Origin: a virus
Direction: 5' to 3' (one strand)
Virus record (IMG/VR): IMGVR_UViG_3300021354_000015
Coordinates: 1-39,816 of that record
DNA length: 39,816 nt
Position 1 is the first letter of the stretch, and every line of letters begins with the position of its first letter. This document shows, piece after piece, positions 1-38,700 of the stretch. The notes under the pieces are model-generated. The model was not told where the DNA came from. It did no database searches and saw only the letters and a program-made list of their open reading frames with translations. The position numbers were made by a program, and so were the translations under genes.

Positions 1-127
1 TTTGGGATGCTTGCCGTAGCCTTCTTTCTGAAAATGGGCTGGCGGTTATGCAATTCCCTGGTGAATATTACGATGGGTCTATGCGTTTAACCACCATTAT
101 TTCCCATAAATCAGGGGAATTTATAAG
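1..127. repeat. 127-bp exact direct repeat, left copy
   Basis: Bases 1-127 match 35420-35546 without a mismatch, and the first difference is at base 128 (A here, C at 35547). The repeat lies inside the ERF gene. Downstream the two copies keep the same gene order but differ at many positions. A repeat of exactly 127 bases that starts at the first base of the sequence is what a de Bruijn assembler with k=127 leaves at a branch point. A biological terminal repeat would lie at both ends, and this one does not reach the right end. Confidence 0.95.
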
Positions 128-296
128 ACAAGAAATGTCTGTACCTGTAACTAAGCCTGATGCACAAGGCGCAGGGTCAGCATTAACTTATATGCGTAGA
201 TACGCATTAGCAGCAGTAGTAGGAGTAGTACAAGCAGATGATGACGGTAATGCCGCATCAGCACCTAAACCAGTAGTAAAAGCAAAGGAAATTTAA
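1..296 (+). CDS. erf: ERF-family ssDNA-annealing recombinase, 5'-truncated (variant A)
   Basis: The reading frame is open from base 3 and its true start lies outside the window. The counterpart at 35293-35724 shows that about 42 N-terminal residues are missing. ERF proteins anneal single-stranded DNA during phage recombination and genome circularisation. The family signature is the tyrosine/arginine block before the hydrophobic helix, here YMRRYALAAVVGVVQADDDG, which is closer to the ERF consensus than the variant B copy (YMRRASLSAVVGV). The next gene starts one base after the TAA, so the two are probably translated together. The family call is by recognition of this motif and of the neighbouring exonuclease. 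Confidence 0.8.
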   Translation, partial: WDACRSLLSENGLAVMQFPGEYYDGSMRLTTIISHKSGEFIRQEMSVPVTKPDAQGAGSALTYMRRYALAAVVGVVQADDDGNAASAPKPVVKAKEI

Positions 297-297
297 A

Positions 298-540
298 ATG
301 GCGTACGAAATGAAGGAAGGCTCTGGAAGCCTTTTCAAGAACTCAAGAAAAACAAGTGATTCGCACCCAGACTTTACAGGCTCAATCATGCTTGATGGCA
401 AGGAACATTGGTTTAGCGCATGGGTAAAAGAATCACCTAAAGCTGGCAAATTCTTTAGCGTATCAGTAGGTAAAGTCAAAGAGCCAATGGGTTTTAAACC
501 TAAAGGTCAAGACGAAATTCTTGACGATACGCCTTTCTAG
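298..540 (+). CDS. Small conserved protein next to ERF, possible ssDNA-binding partner
   Basis: This 80-aa protein starts one base after the ERF stop codon. It has a recognisable phage-type pattern, GSLFKN near residue 10, HPDFTGSIMLDGKEHWFSAW in the middle and FFSVSVGKVKE near the end, suggesting a small beta-rich fold. Similar small proteins often accompany annealing proteins in phages. A single-strand-binding role is inference from position only. The variant B copy at 35726 is almost identical, with differences such as D/N at residue 33 and M/V at residue 63, so the protein is under strong constraint. No membrane segment or signal peptide is visible. Confidence 0.75.
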   Translation: MAYEMKEGSGSLFKNSRKTSDSHPDFTGSIMLDGKEHWFSAWVKESPKAGKFFSVSVGKVKEPMGFKPKGQDEILDDTPF

Positions 541-549
541 GAGATAGCC

Positions 550-747
550 ATGCTAAGTCACATCAAAGATGTTATTGGCGAAAAAGCCATTATTACTATG
601 GAATCCTATGGAGTTGATGAAGAAAGGCGGTTAATTTCTTTTGAACCACTAGACTTAGAGTTAATACTTAAAGATGTGATTCAAGTATGCGCTGATATGT
701 GTATTACTGAAGTAGATAGAAATGCAATTTTAGAATTACTCAATTAA
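550..747 (+). CDS. Small acidic hypothetical protein of the recombination operon
   Basis: A 65-aa acidic protein, nine bases after the previous stop, preceded by the ribosome site AGGAGA that overlaps that stop. It keeps its position and most of its sequence in variant B (35978-36175). The substitutions fall mostly in the C-terminal half, and the central stretch MESYGVDEERRLISFEP is unchanged. I do not recognise the family. Its place between the ERF partner and the exonuclease suggests an accessory role in recombination, which is inference. Confidence 0.7.
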   Translation: MLSHIKDVIGEKAIITMESYGVDEERRLISFEPLDLELILKDVIQVCADMCITEVDRNAILELLN

Positions 748-767
748 GCATTTAAAGGGGAATTAAC

Positions 768-1517
768 ATGGCTGAACATTGGTACTGTGCCGTTACAGGC
801 GCACCACGCTATACAACTACAGGTAAAAATGGAAAAGAACGAAATACAACTTTGCGAGATGCAAAAGCAGCACCAGGCACTCTCGTACCTTCCGTTTCTA
901 CAATTAACAGCCAATTATCTAAAGCTGGACTTGATACTTGGAAACAAACCCAAGTCTTGTATGCTGCTACAGAAAACCCACGATTAGATGGGGAAGATGA
1001 AAAATCTTGGATTTCTAGAATATTAGAGTTAGCCAAACGCAAAAGTCGTGAAGCTGCTGATAGAGGCACAACCATCCACGATTGGATAGAAGCCCACTAT
1101 TCGCAAGAATATGTGCCAGATATGCCAGCGTATGTCAAAACTGTAGATGAGGCTATAACGGCCCATTTTGGGGCGCAGTTATGGATTCCTGAACAGAGTT
1201 TAGTTAACGCAGCAGAAGGCTATGGTGGTAAGTGCGATTTGTATTGCAAGCCACGCCATGACTTCTCTGGGGTCGTTATTGACTTCAAAACCACGGAGAA
1301 ATTCCCTGGTGATTTAACACCCTACCTAGAGCATACACTACAGCTTGCAGCGTATAGAGAGGTTTTAGCCCCATCTGCACGATGCGCTAATGTCTATATC
1401 AATGGCGAAACAAATGTAGTTGCTATCTATGAACATAGCGAACAAGACCTTAGAGATGGCTACCAGATGTTTCTAAATTTGGTAAACATTTACAAATTGA
1501 AAAATAAGTTAAACTAA
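768..1517 (+). CDS. PD-(D/E)XK exonuclease, RecB/Cas4-like (variant A)
   Basis: This 249-aa protein carries the motifs of RecB-family nucleases: RGTTIH at residues 99-104, GKCD with Asp157, DFKT with Asp172 and Lys174, and QLAAY at 192-196. Family members degrade one strand of double-stranded DNA ends, giving the 3' tail that an annealing protein such as ERF uses. The gene follows a strong AAGGGGAATTAAC ribosome site. Variant B (36197-36931) has a TTG start and is 244 aa. An insertion of about five residues (KPRHDFS) between the motifs in A accounts for most of the length difference. I infer a two-component Red-like system with ERF. Confidence 0.88.
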   Translation: MAEHWYCAVTGAPRYTTTGKNGKERNTTLRDAKAAPGTLVPSVSTINSQLSKAGLDTWKQTQVLYAATENPRLDGEDEKSWISRILELAKRKSREAADRGTTIHDWIEAHYSQEYVPDMPAYVKTVDEAITAHFGAQLWIPEQSLVNAAEGYGGKCDLYCKPRHDFSGVVIDFKTTEKFPGDLTPYLEHTLQLAAYREVLAPSARCANVYINGETNVVAIYEHSEQDLRDGYQMFLNLVNIYKLKNKLN

Positions 1518-1578
1518 TTACGAGGCTGGCTTGGTTTCCCCTTCCATTACTCCTTCACACGAGAGTCAGCCTCACCTT
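1515..1578 (+). ncRNA. Conserved hairpin with SD-complementary loop (candidate regulatory RNA, copy A)
   Basis: Bases 1500-1578 are identical to 36914-36992 although the coding sequences on both sides have diverged. Arms 1522-1531 (GAGGCTGGCT) and 1564-1573 (AGTCAGCCTC) pair over 10 bp with one G-U pair, leaving a 32-nt loop. The loop contains GTTTCCCCTT (1534-1543), complementary to the AAGGGGAA motif before many early genes and a 10-base match to the site at 27220-27229. A T-run after the stem is present only weakly in B and absent in A, so a plain terminator is unlikely. On the opposite strand there is a possible 9-codon ORF after AAGGAG. Strand and function are inferred. Confidence 0.5.
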
Positions 1579-1777
1579 CCAATGACCGAAAGCGTAAAGA
1601 AGCAAGTAGGTCACCTTTTTGTCTCTTTTTTACAACACATTAGGGTATATCCCTATGTAAAAGTGCATGAAACTTTAATAAATTACTTACATAGCAGGTC
1701 TTGACACTATTCAGCTTTATGGCCCTTGGGGATTTCAAACTAAAAAGACATGACCTGCTACTTTTAATTGGGGATTT
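1518..1777. other. Non-coding gap after the exonuclease (variant A)
   Basis: There is no convincing gene in these 260 bases. They hold the conserved hairpin at 1522-1573, a pair of short arms TGACC/GGTCA followed by T-runs near 1583-1632, the inverted repeat TAGGG-TATAT-CCCTA at 1641-1655, and the structured leader at 1692-1760 just before the next gene. Variant B keeps the two main elements but replaces the DNA between them. No promoter with both boxes near consensus was found. A start upstream of 1692 is expected if the leader is transcribed. Confidence 0.6.
1692..1760 (+). ncRNA. Structured 5' leader with paired base changes (copy A)
   Basis: Outer arms TAGCAGGTC (1692-1700) and GACCTGCTA (1752-1760) pair perfectly over 9 bp. 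Variant B has TCAGGTCA/TGACCTGA at 37157-37164 and 37216-37223, so a G-C pair in A becomes T-A in B and pairing is kept. The enclosed sequence is nearly identical and holds a small inner hairpin, CCCTTGGGG in A and CTCTTAGAG in B, again with one C-G to T-A exchange. The element ends 17 bases before the start codon at 1778, as expected for a cis-acting leader or attenuator. Only two sequences were compared. Confidence 0.45.
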
Positions 1778-2011
1778 ATGCAAACATATATTAGTAGTGT
1801 ATTTGAGGGTGAAGCCCCTTGTGACCATTGCAGTCAAAAAACAGACTGTCAAGAGTATGAATTAGCTTGTAGGGCATTTTCTTATTATGTTTTGCATGGC
1901 AGATTTCACGACCATACAGTCAGGATGCCAACCCATAACTTATTTAACAAAATCTTTAAAGAAGATGATAAAGCGTTAAAAAATTATCTTAAATCTAAGG
2001 AAGCAGAATGA
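1778..2011 (+). CDS. Cys-rich small protein, possible zinc-binding regulator
   Basis: A 77-aa protein that follows the structured leader with a TTGGGGATTT ribosome site. It has CxxC-x5-C and a later AC (PCDHC...DC...LACRAF). The homolog at 37240-37500 keeps the same Cys spacing (PCPCRGC...KC...LACNRF), although the rest has diverged strongly. That pattern suggests metal binding and selection on the cysteines. The last four bases overlap the start of the FkbM gene (ATGA). Function unknown, and DNA or RNA binding is only a possibility. Confidence 0.65.
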   Translation: MQTYISSVFEGEAPCDHCSQKTDCQEYELACRAFSYYVLHGRFHDHTVRMPTHNLFNKIFKEDDKALKNYLKSKEAE

Positions 2012-2787
2012 ACCCTATTGCATTTGTAGTTACATCAACTAACCAAGGTACTCTTATTCTTAATAAAAACGACTATAAGATGGTAGAAGATGGTAAAGGC
2101 TTTGGAGTAGGATTTTCTTTATTAAATACAGGTAGTTACGATGCAAATGAAGTAGATTTTTTAAAGATTATTTTGCAAAAAAGGCGTGAAAACTTTGGTG
2201 ATGGCGTAATAGCAATAGATTGCGGTGCAAACATTGGTGTACATACAGTATCTTGGGGTAGATTAATGACAACTTGGGGTCATATTATTAGCCTAGAAGC
2301 CCAAGAAAAGATTTACTATGCTTTGTGCGGAAATATTGCCATAAACAACTGTTTTAATGTTACAGCTAAAAATTTAGCAGTTGGCGCAGAAAATGGTAGC
2401 TTAACGATTCCAGAACCAAATTATTTCAAACCTTCTTCTTATGGTTCTTTAGAGTTAAAAGACCACCCAGAAAAAGAAGATATTGGTCAACAAGTTACTA
2501 GCAAAAAACAAATTGGTCTAGTAACAATAGATTCTATAGGCTTGCAAAGATGCGACTTGATTAAGATTGATGTAGAACGCATGGAAGAAGAAGTATTATC
2601 TGGCGCATGGAAAGTCATAGATGAGTGCCATCCTGTGTTGTTTATTGAAGTAGCAAAGTGTACAAGTTTAGATGCAGCTTTAACAGAACATGGTTACAAA
2701 CTATACCCATTGGGCGCTAATCTGTTAGCTGTGCATGAGTCTGACCCTATGCAAGTTACTGTTAATGAAAATGGGATAACAATATGA
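2008..2787 (+). CDS. FkbM-family SAM-dependent methyltransferase
   Basis: This 259-aa protein has the class I methyltransferase signature AIDCGANIGVHT at residues 69-80, the acidic SLEA strand at 95-98 and the FkbM-type block IKIDVERMEEEVL at 185-197. In most relatives that block reads DVEGME, so the Arg in place of Gly is unusual. FkbM enzymes methylate hydroxyl groups of sugars or polyketides. In phages they usually belong to glycan-modifying cargo. ATGA overlaps on both sides place it in the operon. It is absent from the otherwise matching variant B region, where the flanking genes overlap directly, so it is a recent gain or loss. Confidence 0.85.
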   Translation: MNPIAFVVTSTNQGTLILNKNDYKMVEDGKGFGVGFSLLNTGSYDANEVDFLKIILQKRRENFGDGVIAIDCGANIGVHTVSWGRLMTTWGHIISLEAQEKIYYALCGNIAINNCFNVTAKNLAVGAENGSLTIPEPNYFKPSSYGSLELKDHPEKEDIGQQVTSKKQIGLVTIDSIGLQRCDLIKIDVERMEEEVLSGAWKVIDECHPVLFIEVAKCTSLDAALTEHGYKLYPLGANLLAVHESDPMQVTVNENGITI

Positions 2788-2984
2788 GATATAGACCTAA
2801 ATCTGCTTTTAAAGAGATGTTTAAGTATAAAAATCACATTACGCATACGCTAGAAAAGCTAGTAGCGATTGAAAGCAAAAGACGCATTGTAGAAGTATCT
2901 AGTGGGCCATTATGGTACATCTTTGGCTACAAATTAGTGTCTAAACCTTGGCTAACTTACGAGGAAATGTATGACTGTAAATGA
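2784..2984 (+). CDS. Small basic conserved hypothetical protein (variant A)
   Basis: A 66-aa basic protein starting in an ATGA overlap with the FkbM gene. The variant B protein (37472-37702) is about 90% identical over the shared part, including RYRPKS.FKEMFKY and VSSGPLWYIFGYKL, and is ten residues longer at the C-terminus. The high identity despite different upstream neighbours indicates a real gene. I do not recognise the family. An aromatic-rich C-terminal half and a basic N-terminal half could fit nucleic-acid or protein binding, without direct support. Confidence 0.7.
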   Translation: MRYRPKSAFKEMFKYKNHITHTLEKLVAIESKRRIVEVSSGPLWYIFGYKLVSKPWLTYEEMYDCK

Positions 2985-3222
2985 ACCAGTAGCTTTTGTA
3001 ACAGGAGTAAGACAATTTGACCCTGTAATGGCTGATACTGTTTTAAAGGTTGGAACACCACTCTACACCCATCCAGCAAAGACACTAACAGATGAGGAAA
3101 TATACGCTTGTTTTCATCAATATTTTGTTTTAGGCGAACCAAAGCCAACGCATTATGAATTGGAATATGAAGATTTAATTGATTTTGCTAAAGCAATACT
3201 AAGAAAGGCACAAGAGAAATGA
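2971..3222 (+). CDS. Small acidic phage protein with PLYTHPAKTLTDEEI motif
   Basis: An 83-aa protein overlapping the previous gene by 14 bases, with the ribosome site GAGGAAATGT inside that gene. The central stretch PLYTHPAKTLTDEEI is a pattern common in small phage proteins of unknown function, where an N-terminal 'EPVA' segment and PLYTHP are followed by a helical DEEI segment. No variant B counterpart is present, because a different 77-aa gene occupies this slot at 37668. No enzymatic motif is seen. Confidence 0.65.
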   Translation: MTVNEPVAFVTGVRQFDPVMADTVLKVGTPLYTHPAKTLTDEEIYACFHQYFVLGEPKPTHYELEYEDLIDFAKAILRKAQEK

Positions 3223-3410
3223 ACTATTCAGACTTTGTAATTCGCAGTTGTCGTAAAACCCCTAATTCAATGGCAGAAGCGTTTAAAACAGATGATTGGT
3301 GTGTAGCTATTACTAAGCCAAAAGAAAGCGAATACAGCGTGTTTTGGAGTGTTTTAGGGGTATTAACAACACTAGCTTTAGTGGCTTATTTAATAATTAC
3401 CCGTTTTTAG
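3219..3410 (+). CDS. Small C-tail-anchored membrane protein
   Basis: A 63-aa protein starting in an ATGA overlap. Residues 1-40 are polar and 41-61 (VFWSVLGVLTTLALVAYLII) form one membrane segment, which suggests a tail anchor in the inner membrane. Its last 14 bases overlap the 3' end of the endolysin gene on the other strand, so two transcripts meet here with no hairpin between them. Function unknown. A role in exclusion or lysis control is possible from location alone. Confidence 0.6.
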   Translation: MNYSDFVIRSCRKTPNSMAEAFKTDDWCVAITKPKESEYSVFWSVLGVLTTLALVAYLIITRF

Positions 3411-4322: not shown

Positions 4323-4876
4323 TAAACAATCCTTGGTGAAAAAGCAAAAGTAGCAGGGTAATCTTTTATAAGTTCTTCATTTGAGTGCCATTGGTCAGAA
4401 GTAATAAAAGCAGGGTCAACTAACGCTTTAATATTCCAGCCAAAGTTTAAATATAAACACTTAGAACCTAATTTCTTGTAGTAAACCCATTGGAATAAAC
4501 CATGACCTGTTACTAAGATATAGCCAGGTTTATCTACATTACAGTCTAAAGTGCCTTTATAGGACATTCCTGTAGAACCATCAAAGGTCTTTACGGCAAA
4601 GCCGTAGAAAGGGTTTCTCCATAGCCAATGACATCTTGACCACCAACTAGGGGGAAATAAATTTTGAAAAGTATGGTCACCATCTAAGCTGTTATCTGGA
4701 GTTTGAAACCATGACAAAAACTTAAATAATCTTGGCCCACTTCCTTGCTTTGTAGCGTTGTCTAACCAACCTACTTGATTAGACTTAAATAGCACAATTA
4801 ATGGTGCTAATGGATAAGTTAACGCTGTGCCAATTAGATTAATAATGACTAAAAACGGATATAAGATATAGTTCAT
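4322..4876 (-). CDS. Membrane-associated hypothetical protein in the lysis cassette
   Basis: A 184-aa protein with a hydrophobic N-terminus (residues 1-30, ILYPFLVIINLIGTALTYPL) and a Trp- and Tyr-rich soluble remainder. It resembles phage proteins of about this length carrying a WW.R..WLWRNPFYGF block and a G..LFQW.Y...G..LYLNFGW block, listed as a domain of unknown function. It starts in an ATGA overlap with the holin candidate and ends in a TAATG overlap with the spanin gene. Variant B lacks it at this place. Its role in lysis or exclusion is unknown. Confidence 0.7.
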   Translation of the reverse strand: MNYILYPFLVIINLIGTALTYPLAPLIVLFKSNQVGWLDNATKQGSGPRLFKFLSWFQTPDNSLDGDHTFQNLFPPSWWSRCHWLWRNPFYGFAVKTFDGSTGMSYKGTLDCNVDKPGYILVTGHGLFQWVYYKKLGSKCLYLNFGWNIKALVDPAFITSDQWHSNEELIKDYPATFAFSPRIV

Positions 4877-5058
4877 TCTACAGGCCCAGTAGTGAGAAAA
4901 CGCAATATAGCCACAATAATACCAATGCCAACCAGCAATACGCCATAGTATCTTTCGCTTATAACTGACTGCAAATAAGAAAAATTATCAAATAAAGCAC
5001 CAAAAATAACCAATGCGAGTGAAAACCACATTGTTTTTGATTGACGCATACGCTTCAT
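4873..5058 (-). CDS. Holin candidate, two membrane segments
   Basis: A 61-aa protein from the ATG at 5058, chosen because it forms an ATGA overlap with the upstream stop codon as elsewhere in this cassette. A longer 85-aa reading would run 73 bases into the previous gene. It has a basic N-terminus (MKRMRQSK) and two hydrophobic helices separated by SYLQSVISERYYG. Size, topology and place before the spanin and endolysin genes fit a class II holin. No sequence motif proves this. Confidence 0.65.
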   Translation of the reverse strand: MKRMRQSKTMWFSLALVIFGALFDNFSYLQSVISERYYGVLLVGIGIIVAILRFLTTGPVE

Positions 5059-5276
5059 TTGTGGAATAGCCAACCCATCAAATAAGTAACTACTCCACCG
5101 ACTAAAGAAGCGATTGTCATTCCCATCCAAAACCCACCTTTAGACTTATTGGCTAACTCTAATAATTCTTTAATGTCCCTATCCATTGAGTCCACTTTAG
5201 CTTGTAGATTCTCAACTTGATTGACCAAGCCACCAAATTTAAACATATCAAAATCGTCAGCCATGTCAATACTCAT
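5055..5276 (-). CDS. XhlA-like membrane protein (coiled coil plus C-terminal membrane helix)
   Basis: This 73-aa protein has a heptad-like region (LVNQVENLQAKVDSMDRDIKELLEL, residues 17-41) and one C-terminal membrane segment (53-70). The layout resembles XhlA/hemolysin-type proteins that cooperate with holins in some phages. ATGA overlaps tie it to the holin candidate and to the small gene upstream. The similarity is structural only. An anti-holin role is also possible. Confidence 0.65.
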   Translation of the reverse strand: MSIDMADDFDMFKFGGLVNQVENLQAKVDSMDRDIKELLELANKSKGGFWMGMTIASLVGGVVTYLMGWLFHK

Positions 5277-5440
5277 TTTTTAGGTTTACGGGTAGTTGCT
5301 TTTTTAACTGTCTTTTTTGCAACTTTTTCAAATTCAGGCGCTACATAATCTTTTTGCGTAGCAGGGAAAGGCCATGTAGATTCAACACTTACTTTAGGCA
5401 TATAGCCTAATCTGTCAAATAACCAAGATACGATAAACAT
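5273..5440 (-). CDS. 55-aa Lys-rich small protein
   Basis: This short gene (MFIVSWLFDRLGYMPK...KATTRKPKK) fills the space between the Gly-rich fibre protein and the XhlA-like protein. An AGGAAG ribosome site lies six bases before the ATG at 5440, and the TGA stop overlaps the next start as ATGA. The N-terminus is hydrophobic and aromatic, and the last 17 residues are mostly Lys, Thr and Arg. The overlap pattern is the main reason to accept it. Function unknown. Confidence 0.65.
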   Translation of the reverse strand: MFIVSWLFDRLGYMPKVSVESTWPFPATQKDYVAPEFEKVAKKTVKKATTRKPKK

Positions 5441-27038: not shown

Positions 27039-27233
27039 TTAAGGAATTAATTAAACTCTAAGCCATTGATTCTATTGACTGCAATATATCATAAATTGGT
27101 AGTTATGATGCAAAACAACACTTTTTAATAATATTTAGTAATTTAAGGGTTTACCCTCTATTAAAGTATGTAGCAATAGACTACAGTCATGCTTAGCAGT
27201 AACGATTAACAGTCAACTAAAGGGGAAACTTAA
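27039..27233. promoter_or_regulatory. Divergent control region between late (-) and early (+) operons
   Basis: A 195-base AT-rich gap between divergently transcribed operons, so promoters must lie here for both. On the minus strand there is TATGAT (complement of 27088-27093) with only a poor -35. On the plus strand no pair of boxes is convincing. An inverted repeat AGGGT-TT-ACCCT at 27146-27157 could be an operator for one of the two HTH proteins. The gap ends with AAGGGGAAAC (27220-27229), the strongest example of the early ribosome motif. Confidence 0.55.
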
Positions 27234-27545
27234 ATGACTACTATCAAACAAGAAGCAGCACAAGAGCTAGGCAACATTCTAAGCACTATTCCAACAGACA
27301 CCATATATACAGTTATTCGTCATGTATCAGCATCAGGTATGCAAAGAGAAATCTCTGTAAAGATGATAGATGCTGGACGAATCATTCATCTTGATTACTT
27401 AGTCTCTACAGCTTTAGGTAGAAAGCTAGGTAAGCATGGAGGAATTGTAATAAAAGGCTGTGGCATGGATATGGGCTTTCATCTAGTAGAGAACATTAAT
27501 CATTGGTTCTCACCATCCAAGAAGTTTAGACAGGAGTGGATTTAA
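27234..27545 (+). CDS. Conserved early phage protein (VIRHVSASGMQREISV type)
   Basis: This 103-aa protein matches a widespread phage family of unknown function. The order TVIRHVSASGMQREI, then a hydrophobic core, then LG.KLGKHGGIVIKGCGMDMGFHLV is characteristic. No catalytic role is known for the family, although the conserved Cys-Gly-Met-Asp-Met stretch suggests a ligand or metal site. It leads the early rightward operon and its TAA overlaps the next ATG (TAATG). Confidence 0.75.
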   Translation: MTTIKQEAAQELGNILSTIPTDTIYTVIRHVSASGMQREISVKMIDAGRIIHLDYLVSTALGRKLGKHGGIVIKGCGMDMGFHLVENINHWFSPSKKFRQEWI

Positions 27546-28029: not shown

Positions 28030-28176
28030 ATGAATAGCTTAAAAGTTCTAGAAAACAGCTTGTATTGGCAGCAAGTAGTATTGCAACAAAGTCACATCCC
28101 AGCCCAGAAAGACAGGGCTAGGGCAGCAATCGAGAAGTTATCAGCACAAATCAACGCAATCAAAAAGGGGAACTAA
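28030..28176 (+). CDS. 48-aa helical early protein
   Basis: A short protein with a helical body (LENSLYWQQVVLQQSHIPAQKDRARAAIEKLSAQINAIKK). The ATG at 28030 follows AAGGGGGTAATT. The composition (Gln, Ala, Lys) suggests helix pairing with a partner. The next gene starts one base after its stop. Confidence 0.55.
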   Translation: MNSLKVLENSLYWQQVVLQQSHIPAQKDRARAAIEKLSAQINAIKKGN

Positions 28177-28177
28177 C

Positions 28178-28447
28178 ATGACCACAGAAAAAACAGAAGT
28201 TAAAACAGTAAAACCAGCAACTCCAAAGAAAATTACACAGGTAAGTAAAGAGGATATTTACGCAGCAGCCCTCTATCAGACTTATGATGATTTTGATGAG
28301 ATGTTTGCAGTCCTTCGGTACATTATTGAGGATGTAGAGAAAGAGGATTTCAGCAAGTATCAAGTGAGAGGCGCTTTGAAGTCTTTACGCACTCTTATGA
28401 TAGCTAATCAGTCGATGATGATGGATTGTGCTGGGCTTGAATACTAA
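28178..28447 (+). CDS. 89-aa early protein, last of the rightward set
   Basis: The N-terminus is Lys/Thr-rich (TEKTEVKTVKPATPKKITQ), then an acidic helical domain (DIYAAALYQTYDDFDEMFAVLRYIIEDVEKEDFS). AAAAAGGGGAACTAAC precedes it. It ends 13 bases before a strong terminator, so it closes this transcript. No motif identified. Confidence 0.6.
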   Translation: MTTEKTEVKTVKPATPKKITQVSKEDIYAAALYQTYDDFDEMFAVLRYIIEDVEKEDFSKYQVRGALKSLRTLMIANQSMMMDCAGLEY

Positions 28448-28502: not shown

Positions 28503-28697
28503 ATGGTCTATGACCTGAAAGGGTGGCGCACATCCTTAAGCCTTACACAAGAGGGCGCAGCGAGTTTGCTAGGAGTCCATAGGGTTACATACACTAGATG
28601 GGAAACAGGGGCGCAGCCGCCCCCTAAATTGATTGGGATGGCCTGCCTATCTTTACGGGATATTTTAAAAAGCAGGGTTATACCCGAAGAAACCTGA
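28503..28697 (+). CDS. Small HTH (XRE/Cro-like) DNA-binding protein
   Basis: This 64-aa protein is almost all helix-turn-helix: GWRTSLSLTQEGAASLLGVHRVTYTRWETG (residues 7-36), the classic XRE pattern with Q16 and the recognition helix around HRVTYTRWE. It follows the terminator and a GAGGAATTTTTC ribosome site. The inverted repeats at its 3' end and just beyond (28674-28722) could be its binding sites or terminators for the facing operon. Target promoters are not known. Confidence 0.8.
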   Translation: MVYDLKGWRTSLSLTQEGAASLLGVHRVTYTRWETGAQPPPKLIGMACLSLRDILKSRVIPEET

Positions 28698-28722
28698 AGA
28701 AAAATCTAGGGTTATACCCTAG
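28674..28722 (-). terminator. Tandem GGGT-TAT-ACCC inverted repeats, probable terminators for the leftward operon
   Basis: Two related inverted repeats. AGGGTTATACCC at 28674-28685 overlaps the HTH stop region, and CTAGGGT-TAT-ACCCTAG at 28706-28722 has perfect 7-bp arms. On the minus strand each is followed by a T-run (ATTTTTCTT and TGCTTTTT), as expected of terminators for the leftward operon that ends at 28743. The same core also resembles the repeats at 27146 and 1641, so an operator role is an alternative. Confidence 0.6.
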
Positions 28723-29436: not shown

Positions 29437-29477
29437 AATTGTATGTTAGTGTTCTTTTACTTGTTAAGGGGAATTCA

Positions 29478-30431
29478 ATGTACCATTTAAGCGATGAAGA
29501 ATGGATTGCAGTCTGGAAAGAATGTGGTTCAGCCGTTGTAATGGCAACAAAAATAGGTGTTAGTCAGCGTTCAGTATATAACAGAAGAAGGTCAATAGAA
29601 GCAAGGCATAAGATTGAATTGCCTTCAGTAGATGACCAGCGTTTTGACCAATTAAAAAAGATAGCACAGACTACAGGACATACTCGTAGGGGTATGGATA
29701 TAGAAAAAGGCAGAGTCATCGTGTTTTCGGATGCACACTTTTGGCCTGACGATACCACCACAGCGTTTAAAGCACTCTTAGAGATGATTAAAGAGTTTAA
29801 GCCTACCGCAGTAGTCTGCAATGGTGATGCGCTTGATGGAGCTAATTTAAGCCGTTTCCCACGCCAAGATTGGAATAAAATACCAACTGTCAAAGAAGAA
29901 TTAGAAGCCTGTCAGTATTATCTAGGTGAAATTGAAGCAGTTTCTAAAGGTGCTAAATTGTTTTTTCCCCTAGGAAACCATGACCAGCGTTTAGAAATGT
30001 CTATTATTGCTAATCTTCCTACCTTTGAAGGTGTACATGGGACAAGTCTTAAAGACTATTTTCCTATGTGGCAGCCTTGCTGGTCATTTTGGGTAAATGA
30101 GGATACTTGCATTAAACATCGTTGGAAAGGTGGTTGGACTGGTGGTAGGAATAATGCAGTTAATTCGGGGGTCAACATGATTACGGGCCATACCCATGTC
30201 TTATCTTCCATACCATTTAATGATTACAACGGCACACGATGGGGTGTGCAAACTGGGACTTTAGCTGACCCTATGGGACAACAATTTGCCTATACTGAAG
30301 ATACTCCTAAAGACTGGAATAGCGGTTTTGTAATGCTATCGTTTGACCATAGCAAGATGCTTCAGCCTGAATTAATTCGTGTATGCGGTGAAAATAAAGT
30401 AGATTTCCGAGGAAAAATACATTGCGTTTAA
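29478..30431 (+). CDS. Calcineurin-like metallophosphoesterase with N-terminal HTH-like region
   Basis: A 317-aa protein (start at 29478, after TTAAGGGGAATTCA). The metal-binding motifs are all there: FSDAH (83-87), NGDALDG (115-121), GNHD (166-169) and GHTH (237-240). Residues 1-45 look like a winged or plain HTH (WIAVWKECGSAVVMATKIGVSQRSVYNRRRSIE). Family members are phosphodiesterases or nucleases acting with two metals. Phage relatives may process DNA ends or RNA. Opposite in strand to its neighbours. Confidence 0.85.
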   Translation: MYHLSDEEWIAVWKECGSAVVMATKIGVSQRSVYNRRRSIEARHKIELPSVDDQRFDQLKKIAQTTGHTRRGMDIEKGRVIVFSDAHFWPDDTTTAFKALLEMIKEFKPTAVVCNGDALDGANLSRFPRQDWNKIPTVKEELEACQYYLGEIEAVSKGAKLFFPLGNHDQRLEMSIIANLPTFEGVHGTSLKDYFPMWQPCWSFWVNEDTCIKHRWKGGWTGGRNNAVNSGVNMITGHTHVLSSIPFNDYNGTRWGVQTGTLADPMGQQFAYTEDTPKDWNSGFVMLSFDHSKMLQPELIRVCGENKVDFRGKIHCV

Positions 30432-33389: not shown

Positions 33390-33691
33390 TGTAAAACACG
33401 AGGGCTACTTAATGTAACTGGACTTGGCGGAACAGTATAACTTGGTGTGCCAACAACGGTAGTGCCAGTTGCATTTTGTATAACAACCTGGTTAGGGTAA
33501 AGCGTTGCAGTCTGAGTGGTGTAACCCATTGGGTTTACAAACTGTGCGGTATTGCCGTTGATTTGTACCGTACCCATGTTGTAACCACGACTGTCGGTCA
33601 GTTGAACTGTTTGTGCTTTTGCTGGAATACCGTAAGCAAACATACAACCAAGCAATGCACCTAATAAACAACTACCTATAAAGTCTTTCAT
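33386..33691 (-). CDS. Exported early protein (signal peptide)
   Basis: A 101-aa protein with a basic start, a hydrophobic segment to about residue 20 and a signal-peptidase-like AKA site at 25-27. The stretch LLGC at 13-16 could alternatively be a lipobox. The mature part is beta-rich with two related motifs (DSRGYNMGTVQINGNTAQFVN and PMGYTTQTATLY) and a Pro/Ser tail. First gene of the leftward early operon, with AAGGGGAATTAA before the ATG. A periplasmic or outer-membrane protein made first after infection could block superinfection. This is inference. Confidence 0.65.
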   Translation of the reverse strand: MKDFIGSCLLGALLGCMFAYGIPAKAQTVQLTDSRGYNMGTVQINGNTAQFVNPMGYTTQTATLYPNQVVIQNATGTTVVGTPSYTVPPSPVTLSSPRVLQ

Positions 33692-34000
33692 TTAATTCCC
33701 CTTAAATGTCACTCAACATTGAGTAAATACAGTTTGCCTAATAGTCTATAAGTAGTCCACTAGTATTTATACTTAGTTGCTTTTATACCACTCCCAAAAG
33801 GTTTGAGCGCACCTAGCCTACCTAAGTGCGCCTTCAGAGTATCCCATTAAGGAATCGCTCACCCGACAGTCTTACGAGGCACAGGCACTATCTTCGCCAC
33901 CTGTATTGCGCTGTTTCAGCCTCTTACCCTACTAGTAACGCTATAACCTTATGACGCTACGATGTCGTTAGAGCCGCCATCATAAGGGGTTGTAATTCTA
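33692..34000. other. 309-base non-coding region rich in inverted repeats
   Basis: No gene of useful length exists on either strand. Read on the minus strand, there is CCTTATGA/TCATAAGG (8 bp, ends near 33987 and 33947), ACAGG/CCTGT around GGCGAAGATAGTG, GAG-ATTCC/GGGAT-CTC with loop TTAAT, and GCGCACTTA/TAGGTGCGC (9 bp, loop seven). The part near 33692-33790 is AT-rich and probably holds the leftward promoter. The GC-rich hairpin part could be a replication origin, a small RNA or a packaging-related signal. Confidence 0.55.
33711..33724. promoter_or_regulatory. Perfect inverted repeat, candidate operator
   Basis: ACTCAA-CA-TTGAGT at 33711-33724 has perfect 6-bp arms, about 20 bases before the first start codon of the leftward early operon. 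The position between promoter region and ribosome site suits a repressor site. One of the two HTH proteins could bind here. Confidence 0.4.
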
Positions 34001-35076: not shown

Positions 35077-35095
35077 GTATTTAAGGGGAACTTAA

Positions 35096-35296
35096 ATGTC
35101 TGAATTACACCAAGTAATGCTGGAAATGGAAGAACGCTTAGAAGAAGCGTTACAAAACATGGAATTTGGCACAGACCTATCACAAGACGATATTGATGTC
35201 ATTCGTGCAGCTTGTGGCAAACCAAACAACAAACGCAATGTGTTACTACAAAATGTATTTGAAGATTTTGGCACAATCTTTGGAGGTGCAAAATGA
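35096..35296 (+). CDS. 66-aa acidic protein, first gene of the ERF operon
   Basis: An acidic, helical protein (MSELHQVMLEMEERLEEALQNMEFGTDLSQDDIDVIRAACGKPNNK) after TTAAGGGGAACTTAA. Its last four bases overlap the ERF start (ATGA). As the first product of the recombination operon it might regulate or assist it. I do not recognise a family. It is present once, because the left copy of this region begins inside the ERF gene. Confidence 0.65.
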   Translation: MSELHQVMLEMEERLEEALQNMEFGTDLSQDDIDVIRAACGKPNNKRNVLLQNVFEDFGTIFGGAK

Positions 35297-35724
35297 TTAC
35301 TTCTGACTCCATTACTAACTTGACTTTAGCTTTATCTATCGTGCAAGGAAAAATGACTCATGCGATTAAAGACTCTGCTAATCCTTTTTTTAAGTCTAAA
35401 TATGCTGACCTTGAGTCTGTTTGGGATGCTTGCCGTAGCCTTCTTTCTGAAAATGGGCTGGCGGTTATGCAATTCCCTGGTGAATATTACGATGGGTCTA
35501 TGCGTTTAACCACCATTATTTCCCATAAATCAGGGGAATTTATAAGCCAAGAAATGTCTTTTCCTGTATCAAAGCCCGATGCTCATGGATGTTTGGCAAC
35601 GGTGACTTATATGCGAAGAGCGTCTTTATCAGCAGTAGTAGGAGTTGTGCAAGCTGACGATGATGGAAATACAGCAAGCGGCAAAACAATTAATCAACCA
35701 GTAGTAAAAGCAAAGGAAATTTAA
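35293..35724 (+). CDS. erf: ERF-family ssDNA-annealing recombinase (variant B, complete)
   Basis: The full-length protein is 143 aa. It begins with SIVQGKMTHAIKDSANPFFKSKYADLESVWDACRSLLSENGLAVMQ, the ERF N-terminal pattern (KDS.NPFFKSKYADL), and ends in AVVGVVQADDDGN. It is shorter than the 200-aa proteins of P22. The bases 35420-35546 are identical to the window's first 127 bases, after which the two copies diverge (for example FPVSKPDAHGCLATVTYMRRASLSAVV here). The shared N-terminus would serve both variants. Confidence 0.88.
   Translation: MITSDSITNLTLALSIVQGKMTHAIKDSANPFFKSKYADLESVWDACRSLLSENGLAVMQFPGEYYDGSMRLTTIISHKSGEFISQEMSFPVSKPDAHGCLATVTYMRRASLSAVVGVVQADDDGNTASGKTINQPVVKAKEI
35420..35546. 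repeat. 127-bp exact direct repeat, right copy
   Basis: The second copy of the window's first 127 bases, offset by 35,419. The base after it differs. Together the copies mark one complete unit length of the genome. DNA to the right is a diverged version of the DNA at the left end. Confidence 0.95.
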
Positions 35725-35725
35725 G

Positions 35726-35968
35726 ATGGCGTACGAAATGAAGGAAGGCTCTGGAAGCCTTTTCAAAAACTCAAGAAAAACAAGTGATTCACACCCAGAC
35801 TTTACAGGCTCAATCATGCTTAATGGCAAGGAGCATTGGTTTAGTGCATGGGTAAAAGAATCACCTAAAGCTGGCAAATTCTTTAGCGTATCAGTAGGTA
35901 AAGTCAAAGAGCCAGTAGGTTTTAAACCTAAAGGTCAAGACGAAATTCTTGACGATACGCCTTTTTAG
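35726..35968 (+). CDS. ERF-partner protein (variant B)
   Basis: An 80-aa counterpart of the gene at 298-540, with only a few changes (N for D at residue 33, V for M at 63). It starts one base after the ERF stop. The low divergence compared with the exonuclease shows strong constraint or recent exchange. Confidence 0.75.
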   Translation: MAYEMKEGSGSLFKNSRKTSDSHPDFTGSIMLNGKEHWFSAWVKESPKAGKFFSVSVGKVKEPVGFKPKGQDEILDDTPF

Positions 35969-35977
35969 GAGATAGTT

Positions 35978-36175
35978 ATGCTGAGTCACATCAAAGATAC
36001 TATTGGCGAAAAGGCCATTATTACTATGGAATCTTATGGGGTAGATGAAGAAAGACGGTTAATTTCTTTTGAACCCCAAGACTTAGAATCAATACTCAAA
36101 GATGTGATTCAGGTTTGTGCAGATTGTTGTATTACTGAATTAGATAGAGCAGCAATTTTAGAATTATTGAATTAA
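35978..36175 (+). CDS. Small acidic protein of the recombination operon (variant B)
   Basis: A 65-aa counterpart of the gene at 550-747. Most differences fall in the second half (for example ADCCITELDRAAILELLN against ADMCITEVDRNAILELLN). It has the same AGGAGATAGTT ribosome site overlapping the previous stop. Confidence 0.7.
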   Translation: MLSHIKDTIGEKAIITMESYGVDEERRLISFEPQDLESILKDVIQVCADCCITELDRAAILELLN

Positions 36176-36196
36176 GATGCAAATAAGGGGAATAAC

Positions 36197-36931
36197 TTGT
36201 CAGAAAGTCAACATTGGTACTGTGCTAAAACAGGCGCACCACGCTATACAACCATTGGAAAAAACGGAAAAGAGCGCTCAACTACACTTAGAGATGCTAA
36301 AGCTGCGCCAGGAACGCTTGTACCGTCAGTATCTACAATACTCGGAATGTTATCGAAAGCAGGACTTGATACATGGAAACAAACTCAAGTCTTGTACGCT
36401 GCCACAGAAAACCCAAGATTAGATGGTGAAGATGAAAAAGCATGGATAGATAGAATCTTATACCTTGCTAAAGCTAAATCTAGGGAAGCAGCAGACCGAG
36501 GCACTACCATTCACGGCTTTATAGAAGCTCACTATAGCGGTGATTTTATCCCTGACAGCCCTTCGTATGTTTCGATGGTCGTTCAAGCCGTAGAAGCCCA
36601 TTTTGGGGTTCAGGATTGGATTGCAGAGAAGTCTTTAGTATCACCAGAAGGTTATGGCGGTAAATGCGACTTGTACTGCAATGGAGTAGTCATTGACTTT
36701 AAGACTACGGAAAAATCCCCTGGTGACTTAACACCCTATCTAGAGCATACCATTCAATTAGCAGCTTACAGAGAGATTTTGAGTCCTGGAGCTAAATGTG
36801 CCAATGTATATATCAACGGCACTACAAATGAAGTGGCCATTTACGAACATAAAGAGCAAGATATTCGAGATGGTTATGAAATGTTTTTAAATCTTTTGAA
36901 TATTTACAAATTAAAAAATAAGTTAAACTAA
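36197..36931 (+). CDS. PD-(D/E)XK exonuclease, RecB/Cas4-like (variant B)
   Basis: This 244-aa protein has a TTG start after AAGGGGAATAAC. It keeps RGTTIH, GGKCDLYC, VVIDFKTTE and QLAAYRE. It lacks the short insert seen in A between the two acidic motifs (DLYCNGVVIDF here). Differences to A are spread over the protein, including the third codon positions, in contrast to the identical non-coding DNA that follows. Confidence 0.88.
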   Translation: MSESQHWYCAKTGAPRYTTIGKNGKERSTTLRDAKAAPGTLVPSVSTILGMLSKAGLDTWKQTQVLYAATENPRLDGEDEKAWIDRILYLAKAKSREAADRGTTIHGFIEAHYSGDFIPDSPSYVSMVVQAVEAHFGVQDWIAEKSLVSPEGYGGKCDLYCNGVVIDFKTTEKSPGDLTPYLEHTIQLAAYREILSPGAKCANVYINGTTNEVAIYEHKEQDIRDGYEMFLNLLNIYKLKNKLN

Positions 36932-36992
36932 TTACGAGGCTGGCTTGGTTTCCCCTTCCATTACTCCTTCACACGAGAGTCAGCCTCACCTT
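36929..36992 (+). ncRNA. Conserved hairpin with SD-complementary loop (candidate regulatory RNA, copy B)
   Basis: The second copy of the element at 1515-1578, with arms 36936-36945 and 36978-36987 and the loop sequence GTTTCCCCTT at 36948-36957. The identical run is 36914-36992 (79 bases). After the stem it reads ACCTTTTATTAGG, a slightly better T-run than in A, so termination in B cannot be ruled out. Confidence 0.5.
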
Positions 36993-37239
36993 TTATTAGG
37001 GCGTTAAGCCGCCAATGTAGGATGCAGTAATTGGGTTGTTTTGCGGCTTTCTGACCCATTTGTAACAACTGCCAAATACAGCCCTGTTGTTTTGGCACAA
37101 CAAATAAGGGTTTGTCCTAGTATAAAAGTGCATGAATTTTCAATAAAGTTCTTACATCAGGTCATTGACACTATTCAGCTTTATGGCTCTTAGAGATTTC
37201 AAACTAAAAAGACTTTGACCTGACTTTTTTTAAGGAATT
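36932..37239. other. Non-coding gap after the exonuclease (variant B)
   Basis: No gene is seen in these 308 bases. Besides the two conserved elements there is B-specific DNA at about 36993-37110 with inverted repeats AAGCCGC/GCGGCTT and TGTTGT/ACAACA, and AGGGTTTGTCCT at 37106-37117 where A has its TAGGG/CCCTA repeat. A conserved TAAAAGTGCATGAA lies at about 37123-37136, 20 bases before the leader element. Confidence 0.6.
37157..37223 (+). ncRNA. Structured 5' leader with paired base changes (copy B)
   Basis: The counterpart of 1692-1760. Arms TCAGGTCA (37157-37164) and TGACCTGA (37216-37223) pair over 8 bp and are followed by CTTTTTTT, which would also make a terminator. The inner hairpin is CTCTTAGAG. 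The sequence between, TTGACACTATTCAGCTTTAT and ATTTCAAACTAAAAAGAC, is the same as in A. A leader that can end or continue transcription before the 86-aa gene would fit. Confidence 0.45.
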
Positions 37240-37500
37240 ATGAGAATAGATTTATATACAAAATTATTAAATGAACCATGCCCATGTAGGGGATGTACAT
37301 TTGTTGATAAATGTTCTCAATATAGATTAGCTTGTAACCGTTTTCTTCATTACATCAATGAGGATAGATGGGTAAATTTACCGCAAAAAACACCTACCAA
37401 TAAACTGTATGAGTTTATATTTCATCCTAAAACCGATGATTTGATTAAATTATTTCAAAAAAAGGCTAGAAATGCCAAGAAGATACAGACCAAAATCTGA
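37240..37500 (+). CDS. Cys-rich small protein (variant B)
   Basis: An 86-aa counterpart of 1778-2011 with the same Cys spacing (CPCRGC, KCSQYRLAC) but an otherwise different sequence, including the basic tail KKARNAKKIQTKI. AAGGAATT precedes the ATG. Its end overlaps the next gene by 29 bases because FkbM is absent here. Confidence 0.65.
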   Translation: MRIDLYTKLLNEPCPCRGCTFVDKCSQYRLACNRFLHYINEDRWVNLPQKTPTNKLYEFIFHPKTDDLIKLFQKKARNAKKIQTKI

Positions 37501-37702
37501 GTTTAAAGAGATGTTTAAGTACCGTAATCACATTACGAGTACGCTAGAAAAATTAGTAGCGATTGAAAGTAAAAGACGAATTATAGAGGTTTCTAGCGGC
37601 CCATTATGGTACATATTTGGGTATAAATTAGAGTCTAAACCTTGGCTCACTTACAAGGAAATATACGGTGAATATAAAAGTTCAAATAATAAAAGAAAAT
37701 GA
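37472..37702 (+). CDS. Small basic conserved hypothetical protein (variant B)
   Basis: A 76-aa protein, close to that at 2784-2984 (KSEFKEMFKYRNHITSTLEKLVAIESKRRI), with a ten-residue longer basic C-terminus (EYKSSNNKRK) that runs into the next gene. The start lies within the Cys-rich gene. Confidence 0.7.
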   Translation: MPRRYRPKSEFKEMFKYRNHITSTLEKLVAIESKRRIIEVSSGPLWYIFGYKLESKPWLTYKEIYGEYKSSNNKRK

Positions 37703-37901
37703 AGATGGTTCAGCCAACGCTCAAGTTGACTTTGACAAAGAAGGGCTTGAAACCCTTGTCCAATGGGGTTTGGTTGGTTTGCTTACCAAAGCCATTGATG
37801 TGTATAGAGTTAAACCAGAAGAAGATTCTCAAGTTGTTATTAAACGGTCTAAACCAGTCAAAGCCAAGCCTGTGGCGAAAAAGAAAATAAACAATGATTA
37901 A
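37668..37901 (+). CDS. 77-aa variant-B-specific protein
   Basis: A GTG start with AAGGAAATATACG upstream. The body has DGSANAQVDFDKEGLETLVQWGLVGLLTKAID and a Lys/Pro/Val tail (KRSKPVKAKPVAKKK). It replaces the 83-aa gene of variant A at the same place. The N-terminal pattern is seen in small phage proteins with unknown function. Confidence 0.6.
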   Translation: MNIKVQIIKENEDGSANAQVDFDKEGLETLVQWGLVGLLTKAIDVYRVKPEEDSQVVIKRSKPVKAKPVAKKKINND

Positions 37902-37998
37902 TTTAATCATCACAATATTAGCTTTAACTGGTGTTATTGCTTGGGCATTTGCAATAGGAATTATTGCTTATATTTACTTGGAGAATAACAATGAATGA
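37894..37998 (+). CDS. 34-aa membrane peptide
   Basis: MINLIITILALTGVIAWAFA..., one membrane helix over residues 3-28 with a polar tail (ENNNE). It overlaps both neighbours by eight bases. It probably corresponds in role to the 63-aa tail-anchored protein of variant A, with different sequence. Confidence 0.5.
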   Translation: MINLIITILALTGVIAWAFAIGIIAYIYLENNNE

Positions 37999-38194
37999 TT
38001 ACATTTATACGCCTACAGGTACAGATATTACAATTCGCTGGAAATTACAAGGCTGGATTCCACCATCTGAATTACCTGAATACCAAGCTAAATGGAAGTA
38101 TTTTCAAGAACTTCCATTACGCAAATTAGATGACCAAGCCAAAAAAGAATACGAAATTGTATTAAAAAGAGCTAAAGTATCCCGTATTCGTTAG
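37991..38194 (+). CDS. 67-aa variant-B-specific protein
   Basis: I choose the ATG at 37991, which has GGAG ten bases upstream. The protein (MNDYIYTPTGTDITIRWKLQGWIPPSELPEYQAKWKYFQ) has a WKLQGW..PSE pattern found in short phage proteins. Its stop overlaps the endolysin stop on the other strand (38191-38194). Confidence 0.6.
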   Translation: MNDYIYTPTGTDITIRWKLQGWIPPSELPEYQAKWKYFQELPLRKLDDQAKKEYEIVLKRAKVSRIR

Positions 38195-38700
38195 CCGTTT
38201 TTAGCCATTTCTAAGGCGGTGGCTTCTTCATGGTCAACCCTTGAAAGCCATCCCTTACCAAATATAGGGAAAGTCTTTAATGAACGGTAGTATTCCCTTC
38301 GTACTTCTGAGAATTTATTGATAAGAGTTGCTGTATTACTGGCACAAATAAGGCTTCTTGTTGTTGGCCCGATAACTCCGTCAGGTACGCAGCCAATAGA
38401 TTGTTGAAGCAATTTAACGCTTCTGCCTGGCCCTGCATTAACTCCCATTGAAAACACAATAAAGTCGAGTCCCCGAGGTAATACTTCTCCATAGCAAGCT
38501 CTCCAGTATTTTTGTTCATATAAAGGCGCTACATCGTCTTTGGTAAGGTTTTTCATGGTCTGTACAGGATGACCTACATACTCCTCCCAAACTGCCTTAG
38601 TGACCCCTAAATTGGTTTCTCCACCAGGGTCTTTAGGATTATTTACCCAACCACCTTCAGACTTTAATACTAAATCTAAACATTCTCTGTAATCGTTCAT
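38191..38700 (-). CDS. Endolysin, glycosyl hydrolase 108 muramidase (variant B)
   Basis: A 169-aa protein with catalytic Glu15 in LVLKSEGGW, then NNPKDPGGETNLGVT, and the same C-terminal binding domain as A. In A the stretch between W18 and DPGG is TGAQGLKG, here VNNPK, which is closer to the GH108 consensus. ATGA overlap with the spanin gene. Confidence 0.92.
   Translation of the reverse strand: MNDYRECLDLVLKSEGGWVNNPKDPGGETNLGVTKAVWEEYVGHPVQTMKNLTKDDVAPLYEQKYWRACYGEVLPRGLDFIVFSMGVNAGPGRSVKLLQQSIGCVPDGVIGPTTRSLICASNTATLINKFSEVRREYYRSLKTFPIFGKGWLSRVDHEEATALEMAKNG

Follow-up and report, generated by a model that had tools for sequence, protein, structure and literature searches.

A structured phage RNA behind an exonuclease gene carries a loop complementary to early ribosome-binding sites

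A PD-(D/E)XK exonuclease gene (768-1517, identified with Pfam) in a virus record of 39,816 bases, which was analysed over its whole length and is referred to here as the window, is followed directly by a segment that recurs without change at the other end of the record. The question raised by this locus is what the segment encodes, and whether the C-rich stretch within it could act on the ribosome sites of the early phage genes. The first-pass annotation had described 79 bases shared by two strains. The identity is real: the identical run that joins both ends of the contig covers exactly 79 bases (1500-1578 and 36914-36992), with a 99% match between 1490-1578 and 36904-36992, and the sequence at 1515-1578 is as given there. 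However, what was taken for a second strain is the opposite end of this contig, where 35350-38200 repeats 1-3400 with many differences. These diverged copies probably arose when sequences of mixed strains were assembled across the ends of a genome that is circular or permuted. The two ends also differ in their downstream genes and in their RNA modules (elements A and B in one, elements A and C in the other).

The segment folds as a three-way junction (-18.9 kcal/mol, z -3.3, single-sequence fold), to be referred to as element A. The features at the two copies are:

1510-1515, + strand: probable -10 box TAAACT, which overlaps the 3' end of the exonuclease gene, conserved 6-8 nt before P1
1522-1573, + strand: element A, the core RNA, a three-way junction (fold; covariation over 74 homologs, 34 of them distinct)
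1522-1531 with 1564-1573, + strand: P1 (fold)
1532-1534 with 1544-1546, + strand: P2, around the loop 1535-1543 (fold)
1535-1543, + strand: loop of P2, UUUCCCCUU, which complements the early leaders AAGGGGAA (conservation, energies)
1550-1552 with 1561-1563, + strand: P3 (fold)
1584-1612, + strand: element B, an optional hairpin with a GAAA/AAGUA internal loop, then CACC and U-runs (covarying stems in relatives)
36936-36987, + strand: element A, second copy, located in the diverged contig end, with its loop at 36949-36957 and the hexamer TAAACT at 36924-36929
36999-37084, + strand: element C, a pseudoknotted 84-nt RNA behind the second copy (covariation)

The 10-bp stem described earlier is P1 (GAGGCTGGCT with AGTCAGCCTC, 10 pairs including one G-U). 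The plain 32-nt loop that this stem was thought to close was rejected. Both the fold and the covariation replace it with the three-way junction, in which two small hairpins, UGG-UUUCCCCUU-CCA and CUC-CUUCACAC-GAG, stand on P1.

A protein search with the exonuclease gave 80 loci, and nearly all of them show the same layout 3' of the stop codon. A covariance model built from ten of the loci found 74 copies in 81 sources. In about 80 related contigs element A follows the exonuclease, one per genome: the model finds a single copy in 20 of 21 related records, and the window has two because its end is repeated. The model misses the record (G004) from which locus L030 derives, where the element is plain by eye.

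Pairing is conserved across these relatives, as the first-pass annotation had proposed to check. In the 74 homologs (34 distinct), 98.0% of the cells are paired, and 13 of the 18 pairs have changed on both sides. The number of cells changed on both sides is 89, compared to 21.7 ± 4.2 in shuffles, and pairing drops to 36-39% when the partners are slid by one column. The alignment was fitted to the model and is biased towards it; the stem variants are nevertheless legible by eye (GAGGCTGG/CCAGCCTC, GAGGTGG/CCACCTC and GGGGGCG/CGCCCCC). The covariation is carried by P1 and P2, P3 being short and variable. G-U pairs are common (42 of 622), which identifies the + strand as the RNA. A structured + strand RNA is therefore well supported.

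No Rfam family reached its gathering score on either strand of element A, and only chance-level matches were found at E≤5, in agreement with the earlier statement that no known family was recognised. Judged by these sequence models, element A is not a member of any described RNA family. Matches from a loose pattern scan for relatives were mostly due to chance, and neither element A nor element C has a DNA match in named phages. By the exonuclease, the nearest named relatives are MW202674 (43%) and Stenotrophomonas phages, and only one distant relative was found in bacterial genomes. The RNA family, absent from Rfam, is common in freshwater phages. Elsewhere in the window, 33861-33987 (minus strand) matches the Rfam Betaproteobacteria-1 sRNA with 89 bits. 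This sRNA is also present in four related phage records, so the family is at least partly phage-borne, and the match hints at a betaproteobacterial host.

Several features bear on a separate transcription of element A. In 84 of 85 distinct places the hexamer at 6-8 nt before P1 is TAAACT, and in the remaining one TATAAT, while the codons and stops around it vary (TTA/CTA, TAA/TGA/TAG). In L006 and L067, where an extra gene is inserted between the exonuclease stop and the RNA, the hexamer before P1 is TATAAT. In L034, the inserted gene (about 4760-5280) ends in AATAAGTTAAACTAA, adjoining the RNA, and the exonuclease has lost the hexamer. In all three loci the extra genes are inserted precisely between the stop codon of the exonuclease and the RNA. 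Among distant relatives with an RNA at this place, the stop codon forms TATAAT in 52 of 64 distinct loci, compared to none of nine without one. These patterns point to a promoter with a -10 box that overlaps the exonuclease stop codon. The candidate -35 box (TTTACA, 1489-1494, 15 nt spacing) is weak, and a simple promoter scan of the window found no consensus promoter. U-run terminators are present in the relatives of the L357 and L407 types. The + strand of the window has none that is certain, and P1 is adjoined directly by ACCUUCC instead of a U-run; element A was rejected as an intrinsic terminator itself, as it lacks a G+C-rich stem with a direct U-run. The U-runs after element B are the probable 3' end of the transcript in the first copy.

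The neighbourhood contains further structured elements. Element B has covarying stem segments (GACC/GGTC, GGGC/GCCC, GAGG/CCTC) around GAAA...AAGUA, similar to a bulged-G (sarcin-ricin) motif. In element C, AAGCCGC pairs with GCGGCUU inside a hairpin loop to form the pseudoknot; 97% of its cells are paired and 9 of 25 pairs have changed on both sides. Element C has no match in Rfam. It follows the loop RNA in group 1 relatives and in L410-L415, and is absent from the first copy in the window. A conserved leader structure, element D (1694-1758 and 37158-37223), precedes the ORFs at 1778 and 37240, with an outer stem GCAGGTC...GACCTGC and an inner hairpin that changes from CCCTTGGGG to CTCTTAGAG between the copies. 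The palindromes TAGGGTATATCCCTA, CAGGGTTATACCCG and CTAGGGTTATACCCTAG (1641-1655, 28673-28686 and 28706-28722) lie close to early promoters and a small ORF (28503-28697) resembling a helix-turn-helix regulator, and are possible operators.

The sequence displayed in the P2 loop has its complement in the leaders of early genes, as the first-pass annotation had noticed for the same genes:

755-762, + strand: leader AAGGGGAA of the exonuclease gene at 768
27220-27229, + strand: leader AAGGGGAAAC of the gene at 27234, with ten bases that complement the loop plus its flank (-16.6 kcal/mol)
28165-28172, + strand: leader AAGGGGAA of the gene at 28178
29466-29473, + strand: leader AAGGGGAA of the gene at 29478 (metallophosphoesterase)
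33696-33703, - strand: leader AAGGGGAA of the gene at 33691
35083-35090, + strand: leader AAGGGGAA of the gene at 35096, just before the ERF recombinase gene
36185-36192, + strand: leader AAGGGGAA of the second exonuclease copy at 36197

Both the shared motif, with seven AAGGGGAA sites at these genes, and the ten-base match at 27220-27229 are real. The window contains 10 AAGGGGAA sites compared to 1.25 expected, a number that none of 100 shuffles reached: seven gene leaders, the two loops in reverse and one site inside a gene. Late-gene leaders have AGGA or GAGG. With gene starts called by a simple purine-richness rule, identical across groups and strands, AAGGGGA leaders are found at 57 of 257 genes on the early strand, compared to 17 of 727 on the opposite strand (about one gene per genome, 17 genomes), and at none of 181 in three genomes of group 2, where the UCCCCUU loop is missing; Fisher P values for the leaders are not to be taken at face value because the sequences share ancestry.

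The mean duplex energy of the 74 AAGGGGA leaders is -12.9 kcal/mol with the loop and -8.1 kcal/mol with the 16S tail, both values being those of free strands, with loop strain ignored. When the 9-nt loop is scored against every early leader in the window, 13 of 500 shuffles of the loop do as well, a modest advantage; for the late leaders, 297 of 500 do. The comparison with shuffled controls proposed earlier thus separates the early leaders from the late ones. The P3 loop CUCCUU and the tail CUCACCUU of the window are no better than shuffles as pairing sites.

The P2 loop is nearly invariant. UCCCCUU is kept in 49 of 50 distinct variants while the stems change, and the exception (L030, loop CCCCCCUUU) is still able to pair with AAAGGGG. 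Free change of the loop beside constant leaders, which the first-pass annotation had named as evidence against pairing, is absent in the 50 variants. The second base of the loop varies in group 1 (UAU or UUU), with no clear accompanying change of the leader.

A search anchored on distant exonucleases found loci with an RNA at the same place and of another build, in which a stem is followed by GAA facing AGUA (bulged-G-like), then by an inner stem and a C-rich loop, with ACC after the stem. This core is resembled by element B. Loci of the L357 type combine TATAAT, a hairpin whose loop contains CACUCCUUGUU and a clear terminator, and by their looks would be full small-RNA genes. The L407 clade (L407 and L417-L419) branches off separately in the exonuclease tree; its RNA, at the same place and of a different build, has the loop UCCCCUUUGU, and its leaders are ACAAAGGGGA. 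The loop sequence CUUAUCCCCUUUGU and these leaders have ten complementary bases, which exceeds what the ribosome needs. On its own leaders the L407 loop scores better than 200 of 200 shuffles; with group 2 and group 3 leaders its score is unremarkable. Given the separate branch, the UCCCCUU-AAGGGG match arose at least twice; two independent origins on the exonuclease tree are too few for a formal test.

Loci with a UCCCCUU loop have AAGGGG leaders at 151 of 544 genes, compared to 18 of 658 for loci with CUCCUU or CUCCUA loops. The latter loops are those of most of the distant clades, in which leaders are of the AGGTG type at 177 of 658 genes. The CUCCUU loops show no special match to these leaders, so the correspondence of loop and leader is not universal. 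Whether the leaders follow changes of the loop therefore has a divided answer: in the L407 clade they do, in the CUCCUU clades they do not match the loop specially, and for the UAU/UUU variation of group 1 there is no clear signal. The tail GCACC of groups 2 and 3 does match the AGGTG leaders there (z about -1.3 to -3.4), which proves little because the 16S tail matches them too.

The RNA could instead act mainly on host mRNAs or on the ribosome, mimicking the C-rich 3' end of 16S rRNA and dampening host translation, and its likeness to the leaders would then reflect general purine-richness. The loop of the CUCCUU clades is indeed the canonical anti-Shine-Dalgarno sequence, next to AGGTG early leaders that have no special match, and in nearly all groups the pairing of leaders with the 16S tail exceeds that of shuffles. 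However, group 1 and L407 have CCCCUU in the loop, not the CUCCUU of 16S, and their leaders deviate correspondingly, including flanking bases (ACAAAGGGGA) that the ribosome does not need. A host or ribosomal target is considered unlikely. A role in cis at the 3' end of the exonuclease mRNA, as a stabiliser, a processing site or an attenuated terminator with a protein bound to the loop and no pairing in trans, would fit the position of the element 4-9 nt after the exonuclease stop in nearly all loci, and the U-run terminators in which the L357-type and L407-type relatives end. It is judged distinctly unlikely: the RNA keeps its own upstream hexamer despite an inserted gene (L034, L067), a stabiliser does not need an invariant CCCCUU loop that matches distant leaders, and the + strand of the window has no terminator.

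The sequence GTTAAAC or TTTAAAC lies upstream at the right spacing in most group 1 loci, and with the spacer and the strong structure behind it would resemble a -1 ribosomal frameshifting signal at the exonuclease end (slippery GUUAAAC/UUUAAAC). This reading is very improbable and was rejected, as the X XXY YYZ rule is broken by GCTAAAC in L022, L105, L192 and others, the hexamer is TATAAT in L006/L067 and most group 3 relatives, and the spacer varies in length, owing to which the downstream frame is not conserved. It is equally hard to credit that the segment acts as DNA, as an operator or a replication start whose inverted repeat is coincidental. An inverted repeat that lies in non-coding DNA close to genes for replication and recombination would be in keeping with this, but the many G-U pairs, the nested helices, the invariant unpaired loop and the loss of pairing upon sliding the partners by one column are not.

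The preferred reading, with a probability of roughly 0.6, is that element A belongs to a phage small RNA that blocks ribosome entry on the early mRNAs of the phage. The small RNA gene would span 1522 to about 1616, with transcription from the promoter at the exonuclease stop codon. The three-way junction, shown by covariation, displays UUUCCCCUU in the P2 loop, and pairing of this loop with AAGGGGAA in the early ribosome-binding sites, that of the exonuclease included, would keep the 30S subunit out. AAGGGG pairs with the 16S tail via a G-U pair, and through it would still function as a ribosome site. It is a perfect match for the phage RNA alone, by which the RNA could target the early genes of the phage as a group; host mRNAs and late phage mRNAs with AAGGAG-type sites would be spared. 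Moreover, the RNA lies at the end of an early operon, so that early protein synthesis would be ended or balanced as the RNA accumulates. The group-wise antisense RNA proposed by the first-pass annotation is thus favoured by the conserved pairing, the invariant loop, the + orientation, the L407 clade and the early-leader energies, while the lack of a universal loop-leader rule speaks against it.

A further step is offered tentatively, at somewhat less than even odds. This phage family may have co-evolved a ribosome site shifted by one letter (AAGGGG for AAGGAG) together with an exactly complementary small RNA, a private translational control, arisen at least twice, that turns off the early set and leaves host and late genes untouched. 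If true, this would be a new control layout, with a single RNA addressing the early gene set via a shared, altered ribosome site, and the targets of other phage RNAs would be predictable from leader motifs. Known phage systems rely on proteins (RegA, RegB) for the early shut-off of translation, and on antisense RNAs to silence single genes; a literature search for phage anti-Shine-Dalgarno RNAs found none.

In phage T4, RegB cuts GGAG ribosome sites and RegA competes with the ribosome on about 30 mRNAs (PMC3014915). Early translation is shut off as a group there as well, via the initiation regions, by proteins, while here an RNA would do it. The sar RNA of P22 and the OOP RNA of lambda are also small and phage-encoded, and each represses a phage mRNA through base pairing (PMC12197685). 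They have single targets, in comparison to a short loop motif facing a set of leaders in element A. In the C4 antisense RNA of phages P1 and P7, the pairing sequence is probably located in loops and the target is a phage ribosome-binding site (PMC12197685). C4 is described with one target, ant, whereas the leader motif matched by element A is shared by at least seven genes, and the Rfam covariance model of C4 does not match element A.

The Gram-positive sRNAs with C-rich loops, RNAIII, RsaE and SprD of Staphylococcus aureus, LhrC of Listeria and FsrA of Bacillus subtilis, use UCCC(C), placed in a loop or an unpaired stretch, to pair with the G-rich Shine-Dalgarno sites of several mRNAs and block the 30S subunit (PMC9217828, PMC4132741). 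Element A likewise has a C-rich loop complementary to several ribosome sites, beyond chance (seven AAGGGGAA leaders, with 1.25 sites expected in all), its pairing being predicted here. The Gram-positive RNAs are host RNAs that act on host mRNAs, while element A is phage-borne and has another fold. It apparently targets early genes of the phage itself, with a site that has diverged to match.
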